Position numbers and translations under genes: made by a program
Virus record (IMG/VR): IMGVR_UViG_3300028361_000120
Span: 1 to 24,456 of that record
From: a virus
Direction: 5' to 3' (one strand)
DNA: 24,456 nucleotides
The notes under the pieces: generated by a model
The model's database searches: none
Told to the model about the DNA's origin: nothing
What the model saw: the letters and a program-made list of their open reading frames with translations, nothing else
Shown here: positions 482 to 21,746 of the stretch, one piece after another
How the letters are laid out: each line of letters starts with the position of its first letter
Numbering within the stretch: position 1 is the stretch's first letter

Positions 482-1924
482 TTAGTAATCGTCTTCTGGG
501 TCGTAAGCTTCCCCTATAACTCCAGTGTCTACGTTGATTCTATAAAATGCTTTACGCATAGGGCCCTTGTTTTTCTGCACGTCAACCTCTATCCCATTGA
601 GCTCCTCATTAGGGTAGAGCATGACAGCTATCTCGCTGTCCTGTTCCAACGAGCTAGAGCCCTTAAGGTTCTTGATGGTTGGTCTAGTACCAGCTTGTAC
701 TGCACCTCGGTTGATGTGTGAAATAACTATAACTATCACACCATTCTGTTCGGCACAGTTCTTTAGCTCGTGCATCTTCTCAGAGATGAGTGCTTCCTTA
801 TTCGCCGCCCCTCGGATGAGGTAGTCCATGTGGTCGATGATAACCAGCCGTACACCAAAGAGTCTTTTGGCTCGTATGATTGTCTTCTCCAAGTCACGGA
901 CTGTGGGCTTAGACATGTAGATAGGTAGCTTTGAGAAGTCAATCGCCGCTTTCCCCCACTCTTCTTTAGAAGTAAACTGCATTGCTTCCTGAGTCTTAGC
1001 CAAAAGAATCTGTAGCATCCTCCGTCCTAGAGAATATACACCACGTTCAATTGGTAAGAATAAAGTAGGGATGCCCTGCTCTGCAAAATCCTTGACCATG
1101 TTCAAAGAGTGTGTTGACTTACCTGAGTTAGTTTCTCCTGAGATAACCACAAGGTTGTCCCGTTCCAACTTAACTCCAGGGAGTAAACGTGTCTCCAAGT
1201 ACTCCATCGGGTCTGTTAAGATGTTGTCAATGACATCACCCAACCCAGAGAACTCAGACTTATACAAGAACGGTGACTCTATCAGTAACTGCCTGACCTC
1301 ATCATCCGTATGTTTCTGTATGTATTCGTTGGCATCTTTGAAACCCTCAGGGTAGAGCACATTCTTGCACTTGTCTAACCCGATTCGTTGTGCCAACTCC
1401 TTCGCTGATGTTTGTCCTGCATCGTCGTTGTCGTAAGCAATATAAATTGTTCTTAGTTTGTCAAGGGATTCAATCCAAGTTCCATAGGAGTTAGCACCAG
1501 ACCCAGGGGAAATTACATTCTTAATCCCTGATTGCCACAAACTCATACAGTCAAACTCTCCTTCTGCAATTGCTATTGCGTTCTTAGACTTTGCTATTTC
1601 AAACGACTGGTCGTTAAACAGCCATTGTTCAGCGTTAGGTTCACTTGTGTATCGTATATCCTTAGGGTAAAGGAACCGATACTTAATGTTGATAAGCCCT
1701 CCGTCTTTGTAGTGGGGTATACTCACAGCTTTCTTCTGTGAATCATAACCTAGGTGGAAATGATTGATAGTTTCTTCTGTGAACCCCCGTTCTTTTGTGA
1801 GATAATCCCAAGCAGGGCTACCTCGTAGTTTGTTAATCATCACCTCAACCTTCTTAGGGTCTGGCTTTGTATAATCTACTTTGAGATTTTGCTGTAACGA
1901 TTGTATCTTACTTGTTAAGTCCAT
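482..1924 (-). CDS. TOPRIM primase / DnaB-family replicative helicase
   Basis: The 480-residue protein has a primase core followed by a RecA-like helicase, as in T7 gp4 but without the N-terminal zinc ribbon. The TOPRIM part shows the catalytic Glu in EGEFD (E121) and the acidic motif YDNDD (D165-D168). The helicase part shows Walker A GETNSGKST (263-271), Walker B VIIDHMDY (362-369, D364), a sensor-like stretch VISHINRG and the KGSSSLEQDSE motif near 421-431 typical of DnaB/gp4 helicases. It would unwind DNA at the fork and synthesise RNA primers. The missing zinc domain is the product of the next gene (232-480). The ATG start at 1924 has no SD. Family is clear; division of labour between the two proteins is inferred. 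Confidence 0.92.
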   Translation of the reverse strand: MDLTSKIQSLQQNLKVDYTKPDPKKVEVMINKLRGSPAWDYLTKERGFTEETINHFHLGYDSQKKAVSIPHYKDGGLINIKYRFLYPKDIRYTSEPNAEQWLFNDQSFEIAKSKNAIAIAEGEFDCMSLWQSGIKNVISPGSGANSYGTWIESLDKLRTIYIAYDNDDAGQTSAKELAQRIGLDKCKNVLYPEGFKDANEYIQKHTDDEVRQLLIESPFLYKSEFSGLGDVIDNILTDPMEYLETRLLPGVKLERDNLVVISGETNSGKSTHSLNMVKDFAEQGIPTLFLPIERGVYSLGRRMLQILLAKTQEAMQFTSKEEWGKAAIDFSKLPIYMSKPTVRDLEKTIIRAKRLFGVRLVIIDHMDYLIRGAANKEALISEKMHELKNCAEQNGVIVIVISHINRGAVQAGTRPTIKNLKGSSSLEQDSEIAVMLYPNEELNGIEVDVQKNKGPMRKAFYRINVDTGVIGEAYDPEDDY

Positions 1925-1991
1925 TGGTACATTGTATCCTATTAAACTAATAAACCTCGTGGCGGTGCCATTCTAGGCTTCTCAGAGCCTT

Positions 1992-2843
1992 CTAGAACTC
2001 AACACCACTACCCACATCCATCACTTCAAGACCTAGTTCTTCCCACATTCTGATAACTTTTGGACGGTCATCAATAACCAGGGTAACATTCATGTCTTTA
2101 AGATAGGTGTTGTAGATTTGTTCCTTAACAATAGTGTCATCACGGGTGTCTCCCTTACGTCTCATGAACATCATGAACGGTGATGACAGTGGAACGTTCT
2201 TACGTAGCCACTCTTTTGTTACTTGTTTGTAATCGTCTGGTCGGGCGGTCACAAAGATAATCTTCTTACCTTGTGCTTCAAGTTCTTGGAGATGACCGTA
2301 CACCTCTTCACGTACTGTGTCCTTATCCATCTCACTAAAGAATCCTTGCCAGTCCTTAGTCTCTCCCTTCACATAGTGTAGTCTATGTTTGATATCAGCA
2401 ATTGTGCCGTCAATATCACAGACCACAACATCTCCCTCTACTTTCTTTAGACCATACTGAATGGCCATGTGGTTGATAACGTCAGCACCAACACTCTTGT
2501 CTCGCTGACTGTCTCTTAGTATACACGTTTCTACGTCTGTGTCAACCTCTTTGATAACAAACTCTACCATATTTTCTTTGGCAACTTCTCTCCACATCAC
2601 CTCGTTCTTAGGATTTATGTTGCAGTCATCCACTACAACATGAGGTTTACCTGAGGCAAATAAGAAGCTTACTATTTTCTTCTCTAGTGCTACTACTATC
2701 TTCTCGTTCTTAGGGGAGTACTCACCGTAGTTAAGCATTTCTCTGAGTAGGTCACGGTTGACCCTTGGTATACCTAGCTCCTTAGCTACTGTGCTCTTCC
2801 CTGATGCTGGTAATCCCTTCATCATTACTAACTGTCTGTTCAT
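1992..2843 (-). CDS. T4 Pnkp-like polynucleotide kinase / 3'-phosphatase
   Basis: The 283-residue protein has the domain order of phage T4 polynucleotide kinase-phosphatase (about 300 residues). An N-terminal P-loop kinase has GLPASGKST at 10-18, and a C-terminal HAD phosphatase has VVCDIDGTIAD (nucleophile and acid D143 and D145), then VTARPDDY and VIDDRP. Such enzymes remove 3' or cyclic phosphates and phosphorylate 5'-OH ends so that cleaved RNA can be religated, classically tRNA cut by host anticodon nucleases. The partner ligase is directly upstream. The reading frame overlaps the 3' end of the ligase gene by 62 bp, and the P-loop is encoded within that overlap. Starting at the second Met (MMKGLP) would shorten the overlap but keep the P-loop in it. 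Confidence 0.92.
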   Translation of the reverse strand: MNRQLVMMKGLPASGKSTVAKELGIPRVNRDLLREMLNYGEYSPKNEKIVVALEKKIVSFLFASGKPHVVVDDCNINPKNEVMWREVAKENMVEFVIKEVDTDVETCILRDSQRDKSVGADVINHMAIQYGLKKVEGDVVVCDIDGTIADIKHRLHYVKGETKDWQGFFSEMDKDTVREEVYGHLQELEAQGKKIIFVTARPDDYKQVTKEWLRKNVPLSSPFMMFMRRKGDTRDDTIVKEQIYNTYLKDMNVTLVIDDRPKVIRMWEELGLEVMDVGSGVEF

Positions 2844-3771
2844 ATGTATCTGCTACGCTTATAGTTCCTAGTAAAATATCTTTATAGATTTGAATTGCTT
2901 TCTTGTGTGAAAGATTACACAACCTCTTGAAGTCAAGGGCTGGTACTTTCTTAGCAATAGCCCATATCTCCTCTGTCAACATGTCGTGGTAGGCAGTGTT
3001 GATGATACGTGGTATGTGTTCAAGGTCTAGCTTCTTCTCCTCTAATGGTTGCAACTTCTGCATTATCTTCTGCACCCGTGCTAGTGTCATAAACTTATTG
3101 ACCACCCACATTTCATGGTATGTATCACTGTGCTTATTGTTACCACCGAATGTGATACCGTTGTTCTCTTTGAAATTCTGAGTTACAATTTTAGCATACG
3201 TGTTGTCACCGAACTTGTCAATGAACTCCTCGTTCTTTAAGACGATACCTTCACCCTCTACACCAATGGTTGACTTACCAACGAACTCCATCAGTTGTTC
3301 TTCAGTTGGATTAGTAATCATACCGTGGTAGTTAGGTGTTCTAATTCCATAGTGCTTAGCGTAATCTCTCACATCATACTTTGGCATACAATCTTCTTTA
3401 TCTTTGTCTGTAATTAGTGAAATGTCAAACAGATAGAAGTGTTTAAAGTTTGTTTCAGTGTAGTGTATTGTGTGTTTAACAAGCCACTCACCATAAAGTC
3501 TTAGTCTTGGGCGTTCAGTCAACAGGGCTTTGATACCCTCATGTCCTGCTACATACTCAAGGAAACCATTGAAGTAATTGTTACCCTCTACTGGATTCAT
3601 TACGTCACTACACAGTGTGTTGTTACGTGAACCAATAGCAATCTTACCATCCTCTATCCATATCTGGGCATTAGCACCGTCAATCTTTTCCTCTACGTGT
3701 ACATCACCTGACAATATACCATCGGTCTCCTCCTTTCCTAGACGATGTACCTTAGGGTATCGTTTAAACAT
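2782..3771 (-). CDS. Rnl2-family RNA ligase
   Basis: The 329-residue protein is close in length to T4 Rnl2 (334). It carries the nucleotidyltransferase signature EEKIDGANAQ, with K29 as the expected AMP-accepting lysine. Other visible ligase motifs are GSRNN (near 48-52), LYGEWL (motif III region), EGIVLKNEE (motif IV) and YAKIVTQNFKE (motif V). The family seals 3'-OH/5'-phosphate nicks in duplex RNA. With the overlapping downstream Pnkp-like gene it forms an RNA-repair unit. The last 20 codons overlap the kinase gene in another frame. The ATG at 3771 is preceded by AATAATCCAGT with no SD. Rnl2 rather than DNA ligase is chosen from the KIDGAN motif and length. Confidence 0.9.
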   Translation of the reverse strand: MFKRYPKVHRLGKEETDGILSGDVHVEEKIDGANAQIWIEDGKIAIGSRNNTLCSDVMNPVEGNNYFNGFLEYVAGHEGIKALLTERPRLRLYGEWLVKHTIHYTETNFKHFYLFDISLITDKDKEDCMPKYDVRDYAKHYGIRTPNYHGMITNPTEEQLMEFVGKSTIGVEGEGIVLKNEEFIDKFGDNTYAKIVTQNFKENNGITFGGNNKHSDTYHEMWVVNKFMTLARVQKIMQKLQPLEEKKLDLEHIPRIINTAYHDMLTEEIWAIAKKVPALDFKRLCNLSHKKAIQIYKDILLGTISVADTYEQTVSNDEGITSIREEHSS

Positions 3772-3777
3772 ACTGGA

Positions 3778-4056
3778 TTATTTCTTAGTCTTAGTAATCT
3801 TACGGTACCCTGATACTTGCTCTTCCACATACTCTACCTTAAGAAACTCTTCCAGCTTACTGAGTCGGAACTCAACGCCATCGGTGTATTCTATAAGGTC
3901 TGCGATTAGTTTTGCTTGAGCACGTTGATTACCAAGGACTGACTTATGGCCGTCAGACAAACTAGCGAATGTTTCCTTTAGCTTACTGTTGATTGTTGTG
4001 TCTATCATAGACTGCACCTGTGGGTTGATTGTGTTCTTCTTATTCATTCCAAACAT
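3778..4056 (-). CDS. hypothetical protein, 92 aa
   Basis: A 92-residue protein that I do not recognise. It starts MFGMNKKNTINPQVQ, is mostly helix-prone (SMIDTTINSKLKETFASL, then VEFRLSKLEEFLKVEYVEE), and ends in the basic tail KITKTKK. It lies between the ATP-grasp gene (1 bp after its stop) and the RNA ligase gene (6 bp before its start), so it is cotranscribed with both. The start follows TTAATTAACTAAT, a typical A/T-rich start here. The charged helical character could suit a small accessory or coiled-coil protein, but the sequence shows no function. Confidence 0.75.
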   Translation of the reverse strand: MFGMNKKNTINPQVQSMIDTTINSKLKETFASLSDGHKSVLGNQRAQAKLIADLIEYTDGVEFRLSKLEEFLKVEYVEEQVSGYRKITKTKK

Positions 4057-4057
4057 A

Positions 4058-4954
4058 TTAGTTAATTAAATTATTAAAGGCAGTGGTGTATGCGTCTACT
4101 GAGTCCGTGTTCCCTAGACCAGGGGCACTGTTAACCTCTAGTACAAACACCTCTTTCTCCTGATTCATAATGATATCTACTGCTCCAAAGTCTAGCTTCA
4201 ACGCTTCGATAGCGTCAATTGCTAACTCCTCTATACGTTCTAGTCGCTTAAGATTACCTGTTCGGTAAATCCAATTGGACTCTAGGTTACGAACGTCTGC
4301 TTCCTCTCCCTCTATTGTCTCCACCTCACCATCATCGTCAAGTCGGCGGGACTTCTTCTGGTATAAAATAACTTCTCCTCTTAACACATGAACACGGTAC
4401 TCTCCCCTGTTTTCAACACCTTTGGTATACAGCGGTGCATCTGGGACTTCCACTTGTTCTACGAGTTCCAACTCACCTAGGTGGCCAAGAACTTCTTCTG
4501 ATAAATCATCATACCCGTGGCCAGCAAGTGTGCCAGCGATATCTGTGAGTACAGCAACATGCTCATGCTCAGTCATATCGACTGGCTTAATCACCTCGAT
4601 ACCCTCACCGCTGTGGCCCGTCAGTTTGTTTCTAACAAAAACGGTAGCACCTTCTTCAATCCAAGTTTGTGCTGTGTGCCTGTCCTCTGTAAAGTCTACA
4701 ATTGGGACTGCATTTTCATATAACTCTTGAAAGGTCATCAACTTATTGGAAGCTACTGCTACTGCTTCTGGTTGATTGAGCATAGGGACTCCAGCCATTC
4801 TCTCTGTACGACGTGAGTTACCCCAGTTAATAACGGTATGCCCTGCTCGATAGCGGTACCTTGAGTTCTCTGTCTTAATAATAACAGCATCAAGGCCAGC
4901 TTTTAAAATGCGGGCTGATTGTGAACCTACTTTATACGGATAGATTTTAAACAT
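4058..4954 (-). CDS. ATP-grasp ligase (RimK/YheCD-like)
   Basis: The 298-residue product begins MFKIYPYKVGSQSARIL. An in-frame TTG at 5047 is possible in principle, but it lies inside the -35 box of the - strand promoter at 5019-5047, so the ATG at 4954 is chosen. ATP-grasp features visible are the glycine-rich loop VRNKLTGHSGEGIEV (108-121), the central EYRVHVLRGEVILYQKK (185-201) and the Mg-binding C-terminal motif DFGAVD (D260) with VLEVNSAPGL (E273, N275). The family uses ATP to form an acyl-phosphate and ligate it to an amine, often making peptide bonds. It is part of a cluster with an amidotransferase, two COOH-NH2 ligase-type proteins and a cyclotransferase, which points to synthesis of a peptide or amide tag. 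The substrate is unknown. Confidence 0.88.
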   Translation of the reverse strand: MFKIYPYKVGSQSARILKAGLDAVIIKTENSRYRYRAGHTVINWGNSRRTERMAGVPMLNQPEAVAVASNKLMTFQELYENAVPIVDFTEDRHTAQTWIEEGATVFVRNKLTGHSGEGIEVIKPVDMTEHEHVAVLTDIAGTLAGHGYDDLSEEVLGHLGELELVEQVEVPDAPLYTKGVENRGEYRVHVLRGEVILYQKKSRRLDDDGEVETIEGEEADVRNLESNWIYRTGNLKRLERIEELAIDAIEALKLDFGAVDIIMNQEKEVFVLEVNSAPGLGNTDSVDAYTTAFNNLIN

Positions 4955-5018
4955 AATTAGTTTCTTAGTGTGTAATAGACGAGGATAAGCATTGTTAGTA
5001 AAAATATAAGCTCCATCT

Positions 5019-5047
5019 ATTGTATCATACTTGACCTTAAAAGTCAA
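5019..5047 (-). promoter_or_regulatory. sigma70-type promoter for the ATP-grasp gene
   Basis: Read on the - strand, TTGACT (5047-5042) is followed by a 17-bp spacer and TACAAT (5024-5019), with an extended -10 TGA directly before it. Transcription would begin near 5012, giving a leader of about 58 nt to the ATG at 4954. It rules out the longer TTG-initiated reading frame of the ATP-grasp gene. Confidence 0.75.
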
Positions 5048-5108
5048 GCTTTTAATTTATAAACTTTAACCTAGTTATAGGCCAGTTAGAGTCAAGGTGA
5101 CAGGGGGC

Positions 5109-5137
5109 TTGACAAAAATACAATAGTATGATATACT
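5109..5137 (+). promoter_or_regulatory. strong sigma70-type promoter driving a non-coding transcript
   Basis: TTGACA (5109-5114), a 17-bp spacer and TATACT (5132-5137) with an extended -10 TGA. It points away from the ATP-grasp promoter and into about 390 bp with no + strand gene. Its spacer is identical at 14 of 17 positions to the spacer of the late promoter at 13312-13340, including the block AATAGTATG, so the two are probably copies of one phage promoter type. Confidence 0.82.
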
Positions 5138-5143
5138 AGTATT

Positions 5144-5510
5144 CTGTCCTTTGATTAGGAATAGGGACGAAATTATCGGGGGCGTAGAATCTACTACATA
5201 ATCTGTGAGACACCACAACCCCAAGTCTTATCTACCTGCTTGTTAGGGTAGACTAGGCACCGCCATGTTCTTCGGAACGGAAAGCGTAGACCTTGAGTGA
5301 TATTACTATACTCATACTGTTCGGATGGCCGATAGCAGTAGCGTCTACCTAACAAGAAGTGTTCACTGGTAACTAAACATCATACCGACTAGAATAACTT
5401 GTGTCCTGAATCATAGTAATCTCATAATAGTGGTACTAATTAACCTTCACCTCATCTCTGATGAGGAAAGAAGTGTATCTAATAATCTTACATAACCCGA
5501 CTAGAATAAC
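5144..5510 (+). ncRNA. candidate structured non-coding RNA (boundaries approximate)
   Basis: No gene lies between 4955 and 5536, but a strong + strand promoter ends at 5137. The predicted RNA has a 14-bp helix with one bulged G, between CTTGTTAGGGTAGAC (5239-5253) and GTCTACCTAACAAG (5343-5356). It encloses three hairpins: GTTC-TTCG-GAAC (5267-5278, a stable UUCG tetraloop), TGAGT/ACTCA (5294-5298 with 5310-5314) and CTG..TCGG-ATGG-CCGA..CAG (5317-5338). A local alternative pairs TCTACC (5231-5236) with the same GGTAGA, so a switch between two folds is possible. A further hairpin CCTCATC-TCT-GATGAGG lies at 5450-5466. No intrinsic terminator is evident, so the 3' end is uncertain. I recognise no known RNA family. 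Confidence 0.7.
5385..5510 (+). repeat. pair of 14-bp direct repeats
   Basis: CCGACTAGAATAAC occurs at 5385-5398 and again at 5497-5510, 112 bp apart, both preceded by a CATA-containing stretch. They flank the 3' part of the candidate non-coding RNA, including the CCTCATC hairpin. They may be protein-binding sites or remains of a duplication. Confidence 0.8.
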
Positions 5511-5536
5511 CTATAGCATATAGTAAGGGTATCTTA

Positions 5537-5860
5537 TTATACAACTATCATATCATACTTCTTAATAATATCATCTACATTCAAGGTGTTAGCAGAGACA
5601 CATACCTCACCCTTAGGTGTATCCTTCCAGTCATTCTCTGGTTTATGATAGTGTCTCCTCTCATCTTGATTGAGGTGTCTCTTCTTCATTGTTTCTTTAA
5701 CCAAGTCTTTCTTTTCTTTTTGTCCTTGTTCTTGCATCTCAGCTCGCTGTTGATGTCGTAACAATTGTTCTTCTCTGAAATTGTGCACAACTGCCCCCCA
5801 GTCATTATTCATATTCCCCAGTCCTACATCAGGCATTTGTATATCATCATTAGGATTCAT
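5537..5860 (-). CDS. hypothetical polar protein, 107 aa
   Basis: I start this gene at the ATG at 5860-5858, which lies just inside the end of the amidotransferase gene (stop at 5852-5850), the usual translational-coupling arrangement. A longer version starting at 5926 would overlap the upstream gene by 77 bp and is less likely. The product begins MNPNDDIQMPDVGLGN, has a central Gln/Glu/Lys/Arg/His-rich segment (LLRHQQRAEMQEQGQKEKK) and ends TLNVDDIIKKYDMIVV. It is very polar and probably partly disordered. I do not recognise it. Its place directly after the amidotransferase makes it a candidate substrate or adaptor of the peptide-ligation cluster, which is inference only. Confidence 0.72.
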   Translation of the reverse strand: MNPNDDIQMPDVGLGNMNNDWGAVVHNFREEQLLRHQQRAEMQEQGQKEKKDLVKETMKKRHLNQDERRHYHKPENDWKDTPKGEVCVSANTLNVDDIIKKYDMIVV

Positions 5861-7184
5861 ATCTGTTTGCGTTAGCGTATGTGTTATTAAAGTCCTCCAT
5901 CGCTTCACACAGTTCAAGCATCTCAACTACATCATCGGGTGAACAGTTCAACTTAGAGATTGATTCCTCTATGGTGTGCTGTTCAGCTATTAGCTCATTA
6001 TCTTTGTTAGAGTAATTCTTTTCCAATAACATACCGATGTCATGAGAGTTACTAAGAATATCCCTTTGTGTTGAGAGCTTTGCGTGCTTGGTGCACAGGT
6101 CTTCTAGTATTCCTCTAACCTTTTCTTGTGCATCAAGTTCGTCCTGCTCATTCTGTCTCTGTCCGAAACCCATAAAGTTTTGCTTAGGTGGTTCCTCTGG
6201 GCACAGTCTCTTACTGTCTAAGGGTTGTCGTTCGTCTTGATACTTAAGATACTTCTTAGGTACATAGTACATTACCTTATCAATGTTCACAGATTCAAAG
6301 GCGTTCATTGGAATCGTTTTAGCATAAGCTTCAGAGTAGGTGTAGTATCTATTCTCAAGACTTGCATAGTCCTGACGAATTAGCTCTTGTCTCTCTGGTG
6401 TGTAAGTCGTACGAACAACAGGCTTTACATCCATAGCTTCATCTACAGGGAAGTCCTGTTGATACAGTTGAGGGTCTCCGATATCATAACTGTAGATTTT
6501 CATAGCACTGATGGAATCACCATGCTCAGAAGCAAGGCCGTGGTACTTGCGTGTCTTAACAGTAGTCAATGGTCGTCCTTGGTTGCGACCATAGTAGGTC
6601 GATACAACTTGGTCTGTCCCCTTTAGTAGCCTGACAGCAATGAAAGCTATAGGCCCTGTGGTCTCCAGCTTATCTAGCTTGTCGTCAAGGTGACGAGCCA
6701 TCTCAATAGCAAGACACTCAGAGTCATTGAACTTACCAGCTCTTACTGATACGACTTCTTCTTTACCGTCAGTGTGCACATTGATAGTCTGCACCTCATA
6801 CTCTGACTTGTACTTATACCCCAGCTTCCCATGAGCAACGTTCATGGTGTGTTGATTATGAATCTTACCGTTGTGCATAAGAATGTAATCAAACTCTAGC
6901 TCTGCATGACTGACCCGCATAGGGTGAGTAGTATTTAGAGTGTTTTCTGTTGAGGTAGGGAACCTATGATGAAACAGAATGTTGGATGCTTGTTCCTCCT
7001 TTAGGTAGTCAAGCATCGTTGCTTCATCCTTTGAACGCTTGATACCTAATAACATACCCTTATCATCTATCGCTAAGTAACCGTACCCAGCCTTACCTCG
7101 GTGGTCTTGCTTCTTGTAAAGCTTTATTACCTGTTGGCCAACAGGCTTACCTTTCTTCGACCATATTGCTATTAGTCCGCACAT
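5850..7184 (-). CDS. class II (Ntn-type) glutamine amidotransferase
   Basis: The 444-residue protein starts MCGLIAIWSK, placing the catalytic Cys at position 2 after Met removal, as in all class II GATases. Further hallmarks are HHRFPTSTEN (72-81, glutamine-binding Arg74), LMHNGKIHN (oxyanion hole N105-G106) and DSECLA. These domains hydrolyse glutamine and deliver ammonia to a linked acceptor site. The last 190 or so residues follow no synthase domain that I recognise and contain helical, charged segments, so the ammonia or glutamine acceptor reaction is not known. It sits 3 bp downstream of an amidoligase gene, and such GATases occur with ATP-grasp and COOH-NH2 ligases in phage clusters of the phiEco32 type. 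Transfer of an amide or glutamine to a peptide is inferred. Confidence 0.88.
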   Translation of the reverse strand: MCGLIAIWSKKGKPVGQQVIKLYKKQDHRGKAGYGYLAIDDKGMLLGIKRSKDEATMLDYLKEEQASNILFHHRFPTSTENTLNTTHPMRVSHAELEFDYILMHNGKIHNQHTMNVAHGKLGYKYKSEYEVQTINVHTDGKEEVVSVRAGKFNDSECLAIEMARHLDDKLDKLETTGPIAFIAVRLLKGTDQVVSTYYGRNQGRPLTTVKTRKYHGLASEHGDSISAMKIYSYDIGDPQLYQQDFPVDEAMDVKPVVRTTYTPERQELIRQDYASLENRYYTYSEAYAKTIPMNAFESVNIDKVMYYVPKKYLKYQDERQPLDSKRLCPEEPPKQNFMGFGQRQNEQDELDAQEKVRGILEDLCTKHAKLSTQRDILSNSHDIGMLLEKNYSNKDNELIAEQHTIEESISKLNCSPDDVVEMLELCEAMEDFNNTYANANRYES

Positions 7185-7187
7185 AGT

Positions 7188-8192
7188 TTATTTAATTTTA
7201 GTATTAGAATAGTAACCGAATAATCTCTTGACATAATCCTGTAGAAGCTGGTCATCTAAGATAGCAAGGAATTCTTGTGGTGTTCCTTTCATAGACTTCA
7301 AGTCATTAAACTCCATGACCTCAAGTTTATCTGCTATCGTTTGGTGTAGCCGTAGCCACAGTAGCACCTTACTGGCATCTACTGTTCCACCATGTGACCG
7401 TATCTCCAGTGTGCCATGCTTATGCCAGTAACAGTGTAAGTTTACGTTGTGATAACGTGAGTTACAGTAGTCACCACCTGGCTGGCGGCCTTTGTACCAT
7501 ACACTCTTGATATCGTCTTCTGTTTTACAGTTGGCAATATCTGCCAGCTCATAGGAATTACCAAGAGGTATAGAGTACATGTTGCCGTACCTGCGTGACT
7601 TAGATACAATGTTCTCCATAACGTCAGAAAACAGAGTGTAAAAGTAAAATGAATTTTGCAACCATTTAAATCGGTCTGGTCTTTCTAACCAGTAGTAAGT
7701 GTAGTTGAGTCGTGGCTTTCTTTCTAATTGTACCTTAGAGTAGTAGTTAATGTTCTCTATCTTAGTTCTTACGACACCATCTATACCCTGCAATGTACGG
7801 TTGCTTGAAACTATCTCTAGTATTGTAGCTGTGCTAACCTCCTTCTTAATCCTGTTCGACACAGCGATAACCTTTATGTCTAACTTTGGTGCAATCCTCG
7901 ATGAGCGTAGATTACCACCCTCTTTCTTGCCGTCTAAGTGTATGTGCATAGAAGTCTTTGTGCTTTCTGTTGATGCACCTCCACTGAACAGTATTCCACA
8001 TGCCCTCTTAACTTCTGCTTCACCTCCAGCACCTTGCAGTGGCTCTGAGACATATTCTCCAGCGTACCTAAGCGGTCGCAACGAACCATCGTGTATAATT
8101 TTAAGCTCTCCTTTTAATTTATTTAGTTGCTTCTCTGTTTCGGTAGAGAACTCTATCTCTAGTCCAAACCTTCGTTCTGATTGTAGAAACAT
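7188..8192 (-). CDS. amidoligase (COOH-NH2 ligase, glutamine synthetase-like fold)
   Basis: The 334-residue protein matches the Amidoligase_2 type. It has an N-terminal FGLEIEF (9-15), then TSMHIHLDG (80-88, H83 and H85), and a C-terminal HGTLEIRSHGGTVD (259-272) followed by a Trp-containing helix SKVLLWLRLHQ. In the family these acidic and His residues bind ATP and Mg within a glutamine synthetase-like core, and the enzyme joins a carboxylate to an amine. It lies 4 bp downstream of a second, different COOH-NH2 ligase, so two ligation steps may be carried out in succession. The start follows GATAATATT. Family is well supported; the substrate is unknown. Confidence 0.85.
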   Translation of the reverse strand: MFLQSERRFGLEIEFSTETEKQLNKLKGELKIIHDGSLRPLRYAGEYVSEPLQGAGGEAEVKRACGILFSGGASTESTKTSMHIHLDGKKEGGNLRSSRIAPKLDIKVIAVSNRIKKEVSTATILEIVSSNRTLQGIDGVVRTKIENINYYSKVQLERKPRLNYTYYWLERPDRFKWLQNSFYFYTLFSDVMENIVSKSRRYGNMYSIPLGNSYELADIANCKTEDDIKSVWYKGRQPGGDYCNSRYHNVNLHCYWHKHGTLEIRSHGGTVDASKVLLWLRLHQTIADKLEVMEFNDLKSMKGTPQEFLAILDDQLLQDYVKRLFGYYSNTKIK

Positions 8193-8196
8193 AATA

Positions 8197-9174
8197 TTAT
8201 CTGCGTGCTATGAATCTCTCGTAACCCTCTGGTATTCTGTTCTCCACAGCAGACCAGTGTTTGACAATTCCTGCATCAGTTCTGGCAAAACTAGCCATTG
8301 GATTTTTTGATGTCAACCACCGTCTTGAGGCTTCAAGGTTTGTGGCATTTATTCCGTTAGTCCCCAAAGGATTCTGGTCTTTGATAAACTGTTCAAGAAT
8401 TGTGTAGTTCTCAAGTGCCAGCTCATAGTTGTTGGTGTTGATTGCCTTGCGAACTTTTCGCATGTCGAATCTTTTGATTAGTTCAGCAGAGTAACCTTGC
8501 AACTCAATGTCCATAGCATGTCTACCTAGTTGTGATACTAATGACCAAAGAACATAATGTCGTAGCCAGAAGTTACTAGGAACACGGTACTCTATACCGT
8601 ATGGCTTGACTCGGTACTCACCAGCTCGACCATAGTTTTTCCTGCGTGTAACATTCAAGGGGTCGCGGTCAATCAATACACAAGTGTTACCAAGTACTAT
8701 GTCCATAACCTGAATTAGTCGGTCATAGTTTTCTGGCTGTACTTTATTACTGGAATAGCCAAGAGCAAAGTGTATATGACCAGCACCTGCTCGGAACCTC
8801 TCTCGTAGACCAGTGACCCTCTTAGGGTTTTTCTCTTGAGCACTTTCAGTGGGACTACAACCGAAACGCTTGTCAACATTTGGTGTACCTTTCCAAAGCT
8901 CGTCATGTATGACATGGCCGAGTCCGAAATTCAATTCACACTCTGATGCTTTAGCATAGCGATTAGCAATCCCAATACACTTGGCAATCTGATAAGCTGC
9001 TGACTGTCTACAATTCTCAGGTTTAGGGTGTAGCTCCAATTGGAAACCATCTCTTGTAACAAACTCGCTTTCCTTTGGTACTACCTCTGAACTAGGTACA
9101 ACCTTACCGTCTCTTGTAAAGAACAACTCAGGGTCTGAGCCTAAGGACTTGAAACTTCTAAATGATAGTCTCAT
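8197..9174 (-). CDS. phiEco32-like COOH-NH2 ligase type 2
   Basis: The 325-residue protein has the pattern of the phage COOH-NH2 ligase family: GSDPELFF (12-19), FQLELHPKP (44-52), AGAGHIHFALG (129-139) and RAGEYRVKPYGIEYRVPSNFW (about 183-203). These correspond to the conserved Glu, His and Arg residues of the glutamine synthetase-like active site. In phage clusters of this kind the protein occurs with an ATP-grasp enzyme, a GATase and a second amidoligase, as here, and is predicted to add amino acids to a peptide or protein carboxylate. The gene follows a 280-bp intergenic region that holds a candidate structured RNA. The start at 9174 follows TATAAATTT with no SD. Confidence 0.85.
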   Translation of the reverse strand: MRLSFRSFKSLGSDPELFFTRDGKVVPSSEVVPKESEFVTRDGFQLELHPKPENCRQSAAYQIAKCIGIANRYAKASECELNFGLGHVIHDELWKGTPNVDKRFGCSPTESAQEKNPKRVTGLRERFRAGAGHIHFALGYSSNKVQPENYDRLIQVMDIVLGNTCVLIDRDPLNVTRRKNYGRAGEYRVKPYGIEYRVPSNFWLRHYVLWSLVSQLGRHAMDIELQGYSAELIKRFDMRKVRKAINTNNYELALENYTILEQFIKDQNPLGTNGINATNLEASRRWLTSKNPMASFARTDAGIVKHWSAVENRIPEGYERFIARR

Positions 9175-9198
9175 AAATTTATAAATTATATAATAACA

Positions 9199-9445
9199 TA
9201 CGTCTACTCCTACTTCCGTTACTTACTTGACTTTAATGTAGCATTTTCTGTTAGCGAAGTCAAGTCTTTACAGGACTTGAGACTACACATCAACACTTTG
9301 CACCTCGAAGATTCGCTGTTGATAAGTCAAGCCGTTCTCTGCCCGTGAAAAATCATGGCTTGATACTTGGACAATGCTTAATCTAGTAAAGAGCTCCTTA
9401 GAATAGTCCCCTCAGCATATCACTACAGAAGTATGAGTAGACGTA
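9199..9445. ncRNA. candidate structured RNA between the GGCT and COOH-NH2 ligase genes
   Basis: The 283-bp gap between two - strand genes is closed by an inverted repeat of 18 bp with one mismatch (9199-9216 with 9428-9445; core ACGTCTACTC / GAGTAGACGT). Inside are ATCAACA/TGTTGAT (9289-9295 with 9317-9323), TCAAGCC/GGCTTGA (9327-9333 with 9357-9363) and two mutually exclusive helices sharing one strand: ACTTGACTT/AAGTCAAGT (9225-9233 with 9257-9265) and CAAGTC/GACTTG (9261-9266 with 9274-9279). The result is a multibranched RNA of about 247 nt with a possible switch. The flanking genes imply - strand transcription as a leader or intercistronic element, but the pairing does not decide the strand. 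I recognise no known riboswitch or ribozyme class. Confidence 0.65.
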
Positions 9446-9457
9446 CGTTAATAAATC

Positions 9458-9811
9458 TTAATAACTGTTAATAATTGGTCGGTGTTTCTTACAATGCTCC
9501 TTCAATCTTTCACCTGCAAAGTATACACATGCTTCTATGACAGCATCATCATGAACAGAGAAAAATAGTTTCTCTTCAAAATATCCTGCCCCGATTTCCA
9601 TGTTGTAAATTCTTTGATACTCTTCTTCACTTACATGATACAACTCTACATCATGCGTCTTGCCTTTTTTGTTTTGAACTAACGCTGGGTAGGCTCCCAT
9701 AGAATACAAGTCACCAACTACTGTACTTTTGTCAAGCATTACAGCTTCACTAATCATACCATGATTGTACTTGTCTTTTTTTAAGCTACCGTAAACTGCT
9801 ATAATTTTCAT
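9458..9811 (-). CDS. gamma-glutamylcyclotransferase-like (GGCT/AIG2 fold) protein
   Basis: The 117-residue protein begins MKIIAVYGSLKKDKYNH, where YGSL (7-10) is the substrate-binding motif of GGCT-like proteins. The catalytic acid is probably E72 in IYNMEIGAGYFEE, the usual place in this family. GAYPALV and VELYHVSEEEYQRIY are also typical. Family members cleave gamma-glutamyl-amine bonds by cyclising the glutamyl group to 5-oxoproline. Next to amidoligases, a GGCT enzyme could remove or trim a gamma-glutamyl tag, giving the cluster both making and editing activities; this is inferred. It lies 1 bp downstream of the next upstream gene and starts after CCCATTTTAAA with no SD. Confidence 0.85.
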   Translation of the reverse strand: MKIIAVYGSLKKDKYNHGMISEAVMLDKSTVVGDLYSMGAYPALVQNKKGKTHDVELYHVSEEEYQRIYNMEIGAGYFEEKLFFSVHDDAVIEACVYFAGERLKEHCKKHRPIINSY

Positions 9812-9812
9812 T

Positions 9813-10184
9813 TTAAAATGGGATTCTTTTTAATTTATAAGCGGGGTCTACAAATTTCTGGTACCAGTCGGTCATTGCTTGGTGGTCTGGTGTTAATACT
9901 ACCACACACAACTGATTACCGCCAGTGCCACCCCAACCACCGTGGTTGATATTTCTGTTTGCTTTAGTTCTCATAACAGAACCAAGTTTCAGTTCTCGTA
10001 TGAGGGCAATAAACTCTTTGCATTTGTACGAAGCATTATCTTCTACAAATGTCATAACAACATATGTGTGTGCACTAGCTTCTCTCCTGCCGATAATATA
10101 CTTTTTCAGAACCTCTATTGCTTCTCCTTTTACACCCTCTGCAAATCTAAGGCCACAGCACATTGTGCTCATTCCAATATTCAT
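9813..10184 (-). CDS. hypothetical protein, 123 aa
   Basis: I do not recognise this 123-residue protein. It starts MNIGMSTMCCGLRFAEGVKG, has alternating helix and strand-like stretches (HTYVVMTFVED, QLCVVVLTPDHQAMTDWYQKF) and a Gly-rich segment NHGGWGGTGGNQ near 80-91. The layout suggests a small alpha/beta protein. It is coupled to the GGCT-like gene (1-bp gap) and follows the 50-codon gene by 15 bp, so it probably belongs to the same transcription unit. The start follows AATATTAGAGT. The Gly/Asn/His-rich loop could bind a ligand, but nothing shows a reaction. Confidence 0.75.
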   Translation of the reverse strand: MNIGMSTMCCGLRFAEGVKGEAIEVLKKYIIGRREASAHTYVVMTFVEDNASYKCKEFIALIRELKLGSVMRTKANRNINHGGWGGTGGNQLCVVVLTPDHQAMTDWYQKFVDPAYKLKRIPF

Positions 10185-10199
10185 ACTCTAATATTTTGT

Positions 10200-10352
10200 T
10201 TAGTTCTCAAGAACCCAGAAGCTACAACCGTTTCGCAAATGAGCTACTACGTGTTTGTTTCTAAGTTCATAACTAACTACCTCAGCTCGACCAACCAAAG
10301 TTCTGATAAGTGCTACAACTTCTCGTGACGGCTCATGGTTTACTGTTTTCAT
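10200..10352 (-). CDS. small hypothetical protein, 50 aa
   Basis: A 50-codon gene fills the gap between two longer genes. Its ATG (10352-10350) lies 20 bp inside the end of the upstream gene, whose stop is the TGA at 10335-10333, and it ends with TAA at 10202-10200. The product starts MKTVNHEPSREVVALIR and ends GCSFWVLEN, and reads as a compact alpha/beta mini-protein (REVVALIRTLVGRAEVVSYEL, then strand-like HVVAHLRNGCSFWVLE). Overlapping coupling and normal amino-acid composition support it as real. No family is recognised. Confidence 0.6.
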   Translation of the reverse strand: MKTVNHEPSREVVALIRTLVGRAEVVSYELRNKHVVAHLRNGCSFWVLEN

Positions 10353-10743
10353 CAAGTGCAAAATTAAACGATACTGTTAATCCTTCTTTTGTTACTTTAT
10401 GTCCACAAACCCAGTTTATACCTAGTTCAGGCCATATTATACCTACAGTTACCAGTGTACTAACTAGAATTTCCTCAAGCTCTTCTTCTTTATGTAACTC
10501 AGCTTTAATCTGTAGCTGTACATTGTTTTCTTTACCTAGTCCTACATCATCATACGATTCGCGGTCAGCCTTTTTTACGTCTGCCCAATAACCTGTACAA
10601 TCTATAACAGTACACCCGCCTACCAGCCTGCTGACAGCACTTGCTACGTTTTCTATGGCTAGGTGCTTACTATTAAAGTTTTTATCCGAACTACCTATGT
10701 CCAGACTGTACATTACTTGGCTACGTTGGTGTGTTTTTATCAT
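10333..10743 (-). CDS. hypothetical protein, 136 aa
   Basis: I do not recognise this protein. It begins MIKTHQRSQVMYSLDIGSSD; a start at the internal Met11 is also possible, but the first ATG follows GATTATCAT and is kept. Middle segments CTVIDCTGYWADVKK and VQLQIKAELHKEEELEEILVSTLVTVGIIW alternate strand and helix, as in a ferredoxin-like or similar small alpha/beta fold. This is the only gene in the window ending with TGA; reading through it would add 22 codons, but the overlapping start of the 50-codon gene argues that TGA is a true stop. It lies in the run of small unknown genes upstream of the GGCT-like gene. Confidence 0.75.
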   Translation of the reverse strand: MIKTHQRSQVMYSLDIGSSDKNFNSKHLAIENVASAVSRLVGGCTVIDCTGYWADVKKADRESYDDVGLGKENNVQLQIKAELHKEEELEEILVSTLVTVGIIWPELGINWVCGHKVTKEGLTVSFNFALDENSKP

Positions 10744-10780
10744 ATGATAATCTTACACTACTTCACTGATAAATGCAACC

Positions 10781-11089
10781 CTAAGACCCCACTACTACAC
10801 CCGACTTTGTCCGAGTCATAGAAAAGAACGTTTTTCGCTTGTGGCTATCGTAGAATCGCAACGTTTTGTCGCTGTTCACCTTAGTAATAAAAGCATACCG
10901 ATACTTTTGGCCTAGTTCCCGAAACTCACCAATAATCTGTTTGATAGTGTACCCCGTCATTTTTCCTTCTGGTTGTTTGCCGTTGTTAGAATAATACAGA
11001 ACATAACAAAGCGACTTTGTTTTAGACTGGCGTTCAGACAAGTTCGCATTTGCGTTTGCTAGTGCATTTTCTAAGTTAAAATGTGACAT
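10781..11089 (-). CDS. hypothetical protein, 102 aa
   Basis: First gene of the - strand run below the 1.1-kb non-coding region. The 102-residue product starts MSHFNLENALANANANL, then has SLCYVLYYSNNGKQPEGKM, a helix TIKQIIGEFRELGQKY, and strand-like YAFITKVNSDKTLRFYDSHKRK. The basic C-terminal half and the LRFYDSHKRKTFF segment could contact nucleic acid, but I recognise no family. The ATG at 11089 follows AAACTAAATTAAG. A - strand structured leader candidate lies directly upstream (11124-11259), so it may control this gene and those after it. Confidence 0.72.
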   Translation of the reverse strand: MSHFNLENALANANANLSERQSKTKSLCYVLYYSNNGKQPEGKMTGYTIKQIIGEFRELGQKYRYAFITKVNSDKTLRFYDSHKRKTFFSMTRTKSGVVVGS

Positions 11090-18308: not shown

Positions 18309-19286
18309 ATGTCCTCAATCTTTGAAAAAAGAATTAAGCTAAAGCCCTATGAATATCCTGACTTGCCTGCTTACGCAGATGCAATCAGACACTCGTATTG
18401 GGTCCACACTGAATTCAACTACACATCAGACATACAAGACTTCCACACCAGAACAACACAAGCAGAAAAGACTGCTATCACAAGAACTATGCTTGCTATC
18501 TCTCAGATAGAAGTAGCTGTTAAAAACTTTTGGGGAGAAGTTTATTACAAAATGCCGAAGCCTGAGATAGGTGCAGTTGGAACAACCTTTGCCGAGTCGG
18601 AGGTTAGACACGCAGATGCATACGCACACTTGATAGAAATACTAGGACTTAACAGTGAGTTCGATGCTATCAATGAAGTGCCTGCGATTAAAGGGAGAGT
18701 AGAATACTTAGAAGAAACTAACAGACTAGCAAGGACAGATTCAAACGAGGACTACATAAAGTCTATCGTTTTGTTTTCTATTTTTGTTGAGCATGTATCT
18801 TTGTTCTCACAGTTTCTAATAATGATGGGGTTCAACAGATACAAGAACATGTTCAAAGGTATTAGTAACGCTGTTGAGGCCACATCAAAAGAAGAACAAC
18901 TCCACGGTATGTTTGGGATAGAACTAGTAAACTTAATCAAGAAAGAAAAGCCTGAATGGTTTACTAAAGAAACCCAAGAAGACATGTTGGCTGCTTGCCA
19001 CAAAGCATTTAAAGCAGAGTCAAATATTATTGATTGGATTCTAGAAGATGGAGAACTAGACTTCTTAAGCAAGGAAGAAATCCTAGAGTTTATTAAAGAT
19101 AGGTTTAACCGTTCGGCAATAGCTTTAGACTTTCCTCAGCCTTTTGGAATCGACCAAAAACTAATAGAAAAAACAGACTGGTTTGAAACAGAAGTGCTGA
19201 CAACTAAGCATACAGATTTCTTTTACAAGCGTAGTACTAACTACAGTAAGAAGAAAAAACCTGTAACAGCAGAAGACCTGTTTTAG
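18309..19286 (+). CDS. class I ribonucleotide reductase small (R2) subunit
   Basis: The 325-residue protein has the diiron-carboxylate ligands of R2: E98 and H101 in SEVRHADAY, E161 in FVEHVSLF and E196-x-x-H199 in KEEQLHG. Y105 is at the radical-Tyr position (four residues after H101). The first-helix ligand, normally Asp, is probably E68 in SQIEVAVKNFW. The C-terminus ends VTAEDLF, resembling the tail by which R2 docks on the large subunit. R2 generates the radical for reduction of ribonucleotides to deoxyribonucleotides. No large subunit lies in the window; it must be elsewhere in the phage or come from the host. Its place inside the structural operon is unusual. Start has no SD. Confidence 0.92.
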   Translation: MSSIFEKRIKLKPYEYPDLPAYADAIRHSYWVHTEFNYTSDIQDFHTRTTQAEKTAITRTMLAISQIEVAVKNFWGEVYYKMPKPEIGAVGTTFAESEVRHADAYAHLIEILGLNSEFDAINEVPAIKGRVEYLEETNRLARTDSNEDYIKSIVLFSIFVEHVSLFSQFLIMMGFNRYKNMFKGISNAVEATSKEEQLHGMFGIELVNLIKKEKPEWFTKETQEDMLAACHKAFKAESNIIDWILEDGELDFLSKEEILEFIKDRFNRSAIALDFPQPFGIDQKLIEKTDWFETEVLTTKHTDFFYKRSTNYSKKKKPVTAEDLF

Positions 19287-19303: not shown

Positions 19304-19331
19304 TTGACAACATTTAATTAGATGTTATAAT
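19304..19331 (+). promoter_or_regulatory. sigma70-type promoter for the scaffold-capsid genes
   Basis: TTGACA (19304-19309), a 16-bp spacer and TATAAT (19326-19331) with extended -10 TGT lie 17 bp after the R2 stop. Transcription would begin near 19338 and give a leader of about 250 nt before the scaffold ATG. It would give head-protein genes an extra transcript independent of the terminase promoter. Confidence 0.82.
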
Positions 19332-19337
19332 ATACCC

Positions 19338-19587
19338 TGTACTGCGACCCTCGGCAGTGCAACCCAACTCCTCGTGAGTAGGGTGATGTACCCAAAAAGA
19401 ATTTCCCTATTCCAAACTCTGGGTATGTCACCTTGCTTATGAGATAGACACGTGTCTATTCTAATAACGCAAGCGTATACTTTTGTATATGCTAGGAGGA
19501 AACTCCCTCGCCATACTGGACTCGACCAGTCGTGGGCATTGCCACGTAAATAAGTGTATTACCATAAGGGGGCGAGACACAAATGAA
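19338..19587 (+). ncRNA. structured leader or non-coding RNA upstream of the scaffold gene
   Basis: The 250 nt after the promoter are packed with helices. GGTGATGTACCC (19382-19393) pairs with GGGTATGTCACC (19421-19432) over 12 pairs including two G-U wobbles that exist only on the + strand. GCGTATAC-TTTT-GTATATGC forms a hairpin at 19473-19492 (one G-U). GGAG-GAAA-CTCC at 19495-19506 is a GNRA-capped hairpin that hides the only AGGAGG in the leader. CTCGCC (19507-19512) pairs with GGCGAG (19571-19576) and encloses two hairpins, ACTGG/CCAGT (19515-19530) and CGTGG/CCACG (19531-19546), a three-way junction. It could be a cis-regulator or a separate RNA. I recognise no known class. Confidence 0.68.
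19444..19459. repeat. 16-bp perfect palindrome in the scaffold leader
   Basis: ATAGACACGTGTCTAT is perfectly self-complementary, centred on CACGTG, and lies about 110 bp after the promoter. It may be a DNA operator or part of an RNA hairpin in the leader. Confidence 0.55.
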
Positions 19588-20217
19588 ATGACAGACGAGC
19601 AAATAAAAACTTTACAAGAAGCGGTAGCAAATTCTGAAGCCAAGCTATTAGAACAAACTGAAGCAACTCGAGTTGCTTTAGAGGAATCTCTAAAGCATAA
19701 GACTAGCCTCGACAGGAATGTTGAAGAGCTTATCGAAGAGCGAAAGAAAAAGCAAGAAGCAATTGAGAAGTTAAAATTATCAAACGGAGAGACAGACATT
19801 AATGATGTTATAGAACAAGCTTTCAAAACACGTAAAGAGGAGACACGCACAGCAGACTTCAAGTCTGCACTAGATGAATTCAAGGTATCAAAACCTGAGT
19901 TCCAATCTGATGCTGCGGGATTAGTCTTTGGTAGATTTGAAACTGGACTTAAACGATTTAATTTCTCAGACGTAGAAACTAAAGAACAAATGAAGACTCG
20001 ACTTGAGGAAGCCTATAGGTTCCTTTCTCCCAAAGGAGATGACAAAGAAGAGGACAGCTACACAGGTAGCCCTTCAGGAGGAAACCCAGTACCGCAATAT
20101 AATGCACAACAAACACTAGATGAAAAGACAGTGTTAGAAAATACTGGGATGGATGCAGAAAGATACAAAGCCCTCCGTGGTAAGTATGGTGATGCGTTCT
20201 CTGGTTTAGGTCTGTAA
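19588..20217 (+). CDS. probable capsid scaffold protein
   Basis: The 209-residue product starts at the ATG at 19588 (MTDEQIKTLQEAVANSE). The reading frame is open further upstream, but that part lies in the structured leader and has only a TTG start. The first 80 residues are a predicted coiled coil (ALEESLKHKTSLDRNVEELI, EERKKKQEAIEKLKLS), followed by a charged helical domain and a flexible Gly/Ser/Pro/Gln-rich end. This composition, with position two genes before the major capsid protein, fits a scaffolding protein that guides prohead assembly. A final segment (MDAERYKALRGKYGDAFSGLGL) could bind the capsid. The role is inferred from position and composition. Confidence 0.72.
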   Translation: MTDEQIKTLQEAVANSEAKLLEQTEATRVALEESLKHKTSLDRNVEELIEERKKKQEAIEKLKLSNGETDINDVIEQAFKTRKEETRTADFKSALDEFKVSKPEFQSDAAGLVFGRFETGLKRFNFSDVETKEQMKTRLEEAYRFLSPKGDDKEEDSYTGSPSGGNPVPQYNAQQTLDEKTVLENTGMDAERYKALRGKYGDAFSGLGL

Positions 20218-20774: not shown

Positions 20775-21746
20775 ATGATTGAATCACGAAGTAAGTGGGG
20801 TGAATTGGTTAAAGGTGTAGGAATCGAAATCTTGGAAGTAATCGACCAAGGTACAGAACTATACATTCCAGGAATCTCTGCCCTATTAAAAACAGAAAGT
20901 TCTGACTCAGCTCAGAAAACTTTCACAGGTAAAGTATCAGAAAACACAATCAAACGAAAGGATGAGGGTGAATCAACTGATGAACTAAACCGATACAAGA
21001 CATACGTTACGTCTGTCGACTTTACAGCATACGCTGGAAAGATTGAAGTTACACGAGAAAACATTATGGACCGTGACTTCGGAGCACAACTTGATGAAGC
21101 TATGGATATTGGTAAGGCTTCTAACTTCTCGCAAGATGAAGCTGGAGTACAACTATTCAACGGTGGATTTGATACCCGAAAGGAAAACATCAAAGGCTAC
21201 AGCTACAACTACTACAATGACACCAAGCCTACATTTAGTGTAGGTCACCCGTCAGTAGTACCAGGTCAGTCTGCACAAAGTAATGCACACGGTAACGGTG
21301 CGGTACTATCAGAGCCTAACGTAGAAACAGCTCGACTGGCTCTACGTAAGCAAACAACTGATGCAGGTGGACCATTGACAATGGGAGGAATGGAATCGCT
21401 TGCGCTTCCACTTGCCCTTGACAAGCTAGGTCGTCAAATCACAGAGTCTACATTGATTAGCGGTTCAGAGAACAACGACATCAACGTATACCAAGGAACA
21501 ATCGGAATGACTACAAGTATTCTTTTCGATGGAATCCACGGTGGTTCTGACACAGCTTGGTTCATGTTTGTTCCAGGTGCTACCAAATTTATCCACGACA
21601 CACGGGAAGCTATGCAACCTTGGACTGAAGTAGATGAAGATAAGAAAACATTGACTGTAGGTATCTACGGACGATGGGGTAACTACACAAAAGACTGGAG
21701 ACGAGCATGGGGCTCAAAGGGTGACGGTGCTTCTTACACCGCGTAA
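20775..21746 (+). CDS. major capsid protein, HK97-like
   Basis: The 323-residue protein has the length and layout of a major head protein: an extended start (MIESRSKWGELVKGVGIEIL), a mixed alpha/beta middle, a central helix region (ITRENIMDRDFGAQLDEAMD-like stretch near 90-115) and a GGMESLALPLALDKLGRQ helix, and a beta-rich end (TLTVGIYGRWGNYTKDWRRAW). The segment TRENIMDRDF resembles the Mu gpT/HK97-fold family. It would form the icosahedral shell. The gene sits at the expected place after scaffold and decoration genes and is followed by a stable hairpin, as often seen near highly expressed capsid genes. Fold is inferred from pattern. Confidence 0.85.
   Translation: MIESRSKWGELVKGVGIEILEVIDQGTELYIPGISALLKTESSDSAQKTFTGKVSENTIKRKDEGESTDELNRYKTYVTSVDFTAYAGKIEVTRENIMDRDFGAQLDEAMDIGKASNFSQDEAGVQLFNGGFDTRKENIKGYSYNYYNDTKPTFSVGHPSVVPGQSAQSNAHGNGAVLSEPNVETARLALRKQTTDAGGPLTMGGMESLALPLALDKLGRQITESTLISGSENNDINVYQGTIGMTTSILFDGIHGGSDTAWFMFVPGATKFIHDTREAMQPWTEVDEDKKTLTVGIYGRWGNYTKDWRRAWGSKGDGASYTA

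Follow-up and report, generated by a model that had tools for sequence, protein, structure and literature searches.

What does a long, highly ordered RNA do between a promoter and the first gene of a phage head operon? The question is raised by the virus record IMGVR_UViG_3300028361_000120, of which positions 1–24,456 (24,456 nucleotides in all, here called the window) were analysed, and in which an earlier note had described a structured leader at 19338–19587 behind a strong promoter. The promoter lies at 19304–19331 on the plus strand: TTGACA, a 16-nt spacer and TATAAT, with TG ahead of the −10 box, agree with the sigma-70-type consensus at all 12 of 12 positions, which bears out the description, and the start site is placed by consensus alone. 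In sequence comparisons, the leaders of relatives are preceded by the same kind of promoter. Downstream, the open reading frame that starts at the ATG at 19588 (19588–20217, plus strand; 209 amino acids) comes first in the head cassette and is probably a scaffold gene, judging by the size and composition of its product and its position before the capsid gene; the protein matched no family, and no RNA-binding or other domain was recognised in it. A gene encoding 168 amino acids and then the major capsid gene, at 20775, follow. The capsid and portal proteins of the window bear a weak likeness to P22/Mu-like families.

Upstream of the leader, between the portal cassette and the head promoter, lies the gene for the ribonucleotide reductase small subunit (NrdB; 18309–19286). 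It precedes the leader in the window and in relatives L001–L005 and is missing there in L131 and L139. Because it is present in some members and absent from others, it looks like a movable cargo gene; and because the upstream gene differs among members, the leader RNA belongs to, and travels with, the scaffold gene. The early region of the window, on the minus strand (482–11089), encodes a primase–helicase, an RNA ligase family protein and a weakly glutamine amidotransferase-like protein.

The plus strand of 19338–19587 has a minimum free energy of −98.1 kcal/mol, compared with −62.1 ± 4.4 kcal/mol for shuffled sequences (z = −8.21; 0 of 200 shuffles were as good), whereas the minus strand gives a z of −2.95. 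The ordered fold is thus real, strand-biased and beyond chance; it is also conserved among relatives and unusually long for a head operon, in keeping with the earlier description of a long and ordered leader. In the predicted plus-strand fold, a 5′-terminal hairpin of 7–8 bp with a loop ending in CCCUCG (P1, 19338–19361) is followed by a long hairpin (P2, 19371–19443), by small variable hairpins (19444–19493), by a GGAG-GAAA-CUCC hairpin (P3, 19495–19506) and by a three-way junction (19507–19576). A 12-pair helix noticed earlier proved to be part of P2, which has 24 pairs in the window.

To place this leader among its relatives, viral contigs were searched with the capsid protein and a stepwise-widened profile, which returned 5 relatives and then 9, 56 and 80 loci, many of which are overlapping pieces of the same contigs. 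About 50 related phage contigs, with capsids down to approximately 36% identity, share the leader layout. Among isolated phages there was no nucleotide or capsid match, and no credible counterpart of the 3′ part of the leader was found in pelagiphage HTVC027P, roseophage CRP-901 or a spring podovirus, the capsids of which are remotely similar to that of a distant member. A genome collection scanned with the large terminase and with an RNA pattern gave no match; a DNA pattern scan (CTCGACC..GGCATTGC) returned mostly chance matches, and its result was set aside. Some capsid genes of relatives are interrupted: that of L245 by a group I intron (6688–6863; Rfam RF00028) with an open reading frame after the intron, and those of L143 (around 2264–2984) and L296 (around 3395–4000) by inserted reading frames that, by eye, resemble LAGLIDADG homing endonucleases; the latter two insertions had no intron match in Rfam.

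Conservation is uneven along the leader. In the near clade (9 sequences; capsids 72–80% identical), the whole leader structure is kept, and 22 of 45 consensus pairs show two-sided changes. The P1 stem covaries in this clade and its loop keeps CCCUC, whereas the hairpin was not found in distant relatives; two-sided changes occur at many pairs of P2 among the 9 leaders, and most distant leaders have a long hairpin at the same position. In the distant relatives, the apical loop of this long 5′ hairpin is often GGUCGAU or a close variant (L217, L235, L237, L240, L249, L250 and L252), and may be a protein or tertiary contact site. A UUUU-loop hairpin pointed out in the earlier note is indeed present at 19472–19493, but is not general among relatives, the small hairpins of this region being missing or different in L002, L003 and L139. 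Similarly, the GNRA hairpin carrying AGGAGG exists as P3, but outside the nearest relatives (L001, L002 and L005), which alone keep its sequence, a different small hairpin occupies this place. All three of these hairpins, P1 (loop CCCUCG), the UUUU-loop hairpin and P3 (AGGAGG/GAAA), are thus features of the clade or of the window.

The part of the leader that is shared most widely is the junction. It had been described as a closed three-way junction ending 11 nt before the start codon; the position is correct, but comparison with relatives shows it to be, at the level of sequence, a nested double pseudoknot closed by a stem and adjoining the scaffold start codon. In the closing stem, the 5′ strand CUCGCC (19507–19512) pairs with GGCGAG (19571–19576) and is kept in 9 of 9 near leaders, with one G–C pair replaced by A–U in three of them. 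Inside it stand two tandem 5-bp hairpins: H1 (19515–19530), with the loop ACUCGA, and H2 (19531–19546), with the loop GCAUUG. An A-rich linker and a proximal element, GUGU (19554–19557), follow at 19547–19557 (columns 45–55 of alignment A5, described below), and a distal element, GGG (19568–19570), lies together with the 3′ strand of the closing stem at 19566–19576. The CAU of the H2 loop (19537–19539) pairs with the GUG of the proximal element and the CUC of the H1 loop (19521–19523) with the distal GGG. Nearly all of around 40 distant leaders (capsids 37–51% identical to that of the window) share this layout: two tandem hairpins of 4–6 bp, each with a loop of some 6 nt, and then, in order, an A-rich linker, the proximal and distal G-triplet elements and the start codon. 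The loop helices are short (3–4 bp), and many contain a U–G pair. A switch is possible in the near clade: GGGGG at 19568–19572 is a potential partner of the P1 loop (CCCUC), which would then compete with the H1 loop.

Partner sequences change together: CUC or CCC occurs with GGG, CAU or CAC with GUG, and CCU with AGG, and in L243 an ACUCC is paired with GGAGU. Under the nested rule, which joins the H2 loop to the proximal element and the H1 loop to the distal one, the 3-bp register is satisfied by 36 of 38 leaders for H1–distal and by 33 of 38 for H2–proximal, values reached by 0 of 20,000 shuffles. The element table was curated by hand with the pattern known, although no element was picked to suit a loop: the first two G-triplets behind the A-runs were used, in that order. 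Because the sequences are related and the tables hand-read, shuffle figures here and below are not strict probabilities. The swapped pairing (H1 loop with the proximal element, H2 loop with the distal one) was rejected, scoring 18 of 38 and 18 of 38, which is the chance level. L249 and L250 assign GUG and GGG to the two elements in the opposite way to L223, L225 and L242, and each element is matched by its own loop. Exceptions are L231, L234, L253 and L256, which do not form the full set of three pairs in the fixed register, and L217, which pairs only in a shifted register. The case for the predicted pseudoknot pairing rests chiefly on pair types having been swapped independently.

In a MAFFT alignment of 36 sequences (A5), 13 pairs were scored, covering the two hairpin stems and the H2–proximal helix. 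Paired cells amounted to 94.4%, compared with 72.6% after shuffling and less than 47% in slid controls, and 102 cells carried two-sided changes, compared with 32 after shuffling. The H1 stem is 97.8% paired and the H2 stem 94.4%, each with two-sided changes at four of five pairs, and all three pairs of the H2–proximal pseudoknot show such changes. A covariance model, R1, was built from the 36 sequences of A5 and run on capsid relatives that were found later. Ten new loci carried a match to the module at the scaffold start (E < 0.001), and the matches in L296 and L323 were weak. A hold-out set of 13 leaders outside the training of R1—including L230, fetched earlier but outside the model—was then read by eye, and the predicted register held for both the H1–distal and the H2–proximal pairing in all 13 (shuffle P = 0.0026 and 0.0001, compared with 0.20 and 0.21 for the swapped controls), with pair types that include UCCU/AGGA in L280 and GCAU/GUGC in L324. 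The earlier note had staked its reading on whether the helices are conserved in related phages; they are, with compensatory changes.

Covariance searches found the module in 52 of 57 sources, several of which are overlapping pieces of one contig, once in each and at the scaffold start. When whole records were searched, the site was present in 19 of 20 and a second credible site in none. The most remote capsid relatives, L325–L335, gave no module match above chance.

This pattern bears on what the leader may be for. The 5′ hairpins, which in most relatives are very stable and stand at the predicted 5′ end of the transcript, would suit a leader that mainly stabilises or processes the mRNA by shielding it from RNase, with the double pseudoknot as part of that arrangement. 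We regard this as improbable as the main role: it leaves unexplained why conservation is strongest in the pseudoknot module rather than in the 5′ hairpins, and why the module always abuts the start codon. Compact pseudoknots near start codons are common in riboswitches, and the loops and A-rich linkers here are conserved, so the module might be imagined to bind a small molecule and gate translation of the head genes. Yet the loop sequences change freely provided that they still pair, which leaves no invariant binding core; no riboswitch in Rfam matched, and it is hard to see what a scaffold gene would gain from sensing a metabolite. This makes a riboswitch very unlikely.

The start codon itself requires a closer look, as the distal element lies 2–25 nt (median, 10.5 nt; 34 leaders) before the scaffold ATG. 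Shine–Dalgarno (SD)-like tetramers at −20 to −4 precede 9.4% of 384 long open reading frames in the window and the contigs of relatives, compared with 21% in an in-gene control, and strong SD sites precede 2.3%, compared with 8%. SD sites are therefore depleted at the gene starts of these phages, where the context is A-rich with A at −3 and T at −1; although the promoter is sigma-70-like, such starts point to a host that does not rely on SD sites. The earlier proposal that P3 sequesters an AGGAGG consequently fails, as the hairpin is not conserved and these phages do without SD sites. Nor does the distal element act as such a site: it is GGG, GUG or AGG and changes with its loop, it is sometimes only 2–3 nt from the ATG, too near for an SD site, and in several members it is GUG, which argues that it is kept for pairing and not for anti-SD complementarity.

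A start without an SD site also opens the main rival to repression, in which the double pseudoknot acts positively: it would bring the ribosome to this mRNA or position it there, through protein S1 or in the manner of a bacterial internal ribosome entry site (IRES), so that the head operon is strongly translated. The reported binding of S1 to pseudoknots and to AU-rich enhancer sites (PMC10931766) makes this rival realistic; the module ends right at the start codon, and the gene behind it has a perfect promoter and has to be strongly expressed. Against it, initiation is usually reduced by stable structure directly before a start, and some distal elements are just 2–3 nt from the ATG. The capsid gene, the product of which is needed in more copies, lacks such an element, and none comparable was found at the capsid gene starts that we examined. 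The conservation would be accounted for just as well by activation, and we hold a positive element to be a tentative but serious alternative. Its more specific form, in which an IRES-like RNA shape rather than an SD sequence drives strong translation of the head operon, is less probable still.

We lean slightly towards the view that the leader is a cis-acting translation-control element of the head-gene mRNA, in which a phage protein, with the scaffold protein as leading candidate, stabilises the fold and lowers scaffold translation. In the scheme that follows, we infer three things: that the RNA acts on translation, that folding switches translation off, and which ligand is involved. Transcription would start at the promoter at approximately 19304–19331, and stable hairpins, which probably protect the mRNA as well, would form at the 5′ end. 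The nested double pseudoknot would occupy the last 70 nt, with the H2 loop paired to the proximal element, the H1 loop to the distal one and the stem closing both. As the structured RNA begins 2–25 nt upstream of the start codon, the 30S subunit should fail to place that codon normally; as the loop helices have only 3–4 bp, the fold alone should be marginally stable. A fold that should hinder the 30S subunit and yet is held by such weak helices would be well suited to act as a switch, which a phage protein most likely stabilises. As free phage protein—the scaffold being the leading candidate—accumulates, it would bind and stabilise the fold, and scaffold translation would fall. Control of head-protein translation, suggested in the earlier note, is supported as likely by a structure conserved with compensatory changes, and its regulatory role is the inferred part.

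Known systems offer precedents for such control. The scaffolding protein of phage P22 limits its own synthesis post-transcriptionally; the logic would be the same if the scaffold product here limits its own synthesis after transcription, and we know of no RNA operator of this shape in P22. What marks a pseudoknot translational operator, a pseudoknot with compensatory changes beside a start codon, is found in these leaders. The uS4 operator of the Escherichia coli alpha operon is a complex pseudoknot that includes the translation start region and exerts conformational control of initiation (PMC10931766). Like that operator (rpsM start; Rfam Alpha_RBS), the module is a complex pseudoknot at the start of the first gene of an assembly operon; unlike it, it belongs to a head gene of SD-less phages and has two tandem hexaloop hairpins, and there is no sequence or model match between them. 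The gene 32 leader of phage T4 likewise contains a pseudoknot in a phage mRNA leader, which controls translation of its own gene (PMC3014915), but that is one pseudoknot 67 nt upstream of the start, compared with two nested ones ending 2–25 nt away here, and product and sequence are unrelated. The uS15 (rpsO) operators of E. coli and mycobacteria have a pseudoknot at the start codon or immediately before it, for autogenous repression (PMC10931766). They share this location with the module, but are single pseudoknots, and no Rfam match connects them to it. It is these pseudoknot precedents, together with the autoregulation of the P22 scaffold, that lead us to favour autogenous control by the scaffold protein.

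The leader resembles the phi29 packaging RNA (pRNA) in being a structured phage RNA of similar size near head genes, and size, this position and a junction are all that spoke for the separate packaging RNA that the earlier note had raised. Architecture and motor differ: the packaging ATPase of the window is a classical large terminase (TerL) of 543 amino acids with tblastn matches in unrelated tailed phages, not a small phi29-type enzyme. The module is in cis with the scaffold start codon in every member, and there is no terminator-like site on the plus strand between the leader RNA and the gene. A search of the window against Rfam 15, pRNA model included, gave no match at the gathering score or at E values up to 10 that would assign the leader to a known family. 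A phi29-type role is thus exceedingly improbable. At E values up to 10, the leaders of the window and of L223 drew only chance matches of the microRNA, small nucleolar RNA and small RNA type, with no Alpha_RBS among them, and ten relatives searched at the gathering score yielded only a tRNA. A tRNA gene lies within the scaffold leader region of L214 (4754–4824), upstream of the double pseudoknot.

No description of this motif was found in the open papers that were searched. As far as Rfam 15 and those papers show, the RNA family has not been described before, whereas its functional class is a known one. A conserved two-hairpin fold that pairs near the start codon and is absent from the RNA-family database probably controls the timing of head-protein production. 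Throughout a wide range of uncultivated, SD-less phages, the strongly covarying nested double pseudoknot stays with the scaffold gene, and the family model of this RNA marks both these phages and their head operon. It makes testable how the balance of scaffold and capsid is set at the RNA level in phages, and how initiation is controlled on mRNAs that lack SD sites.
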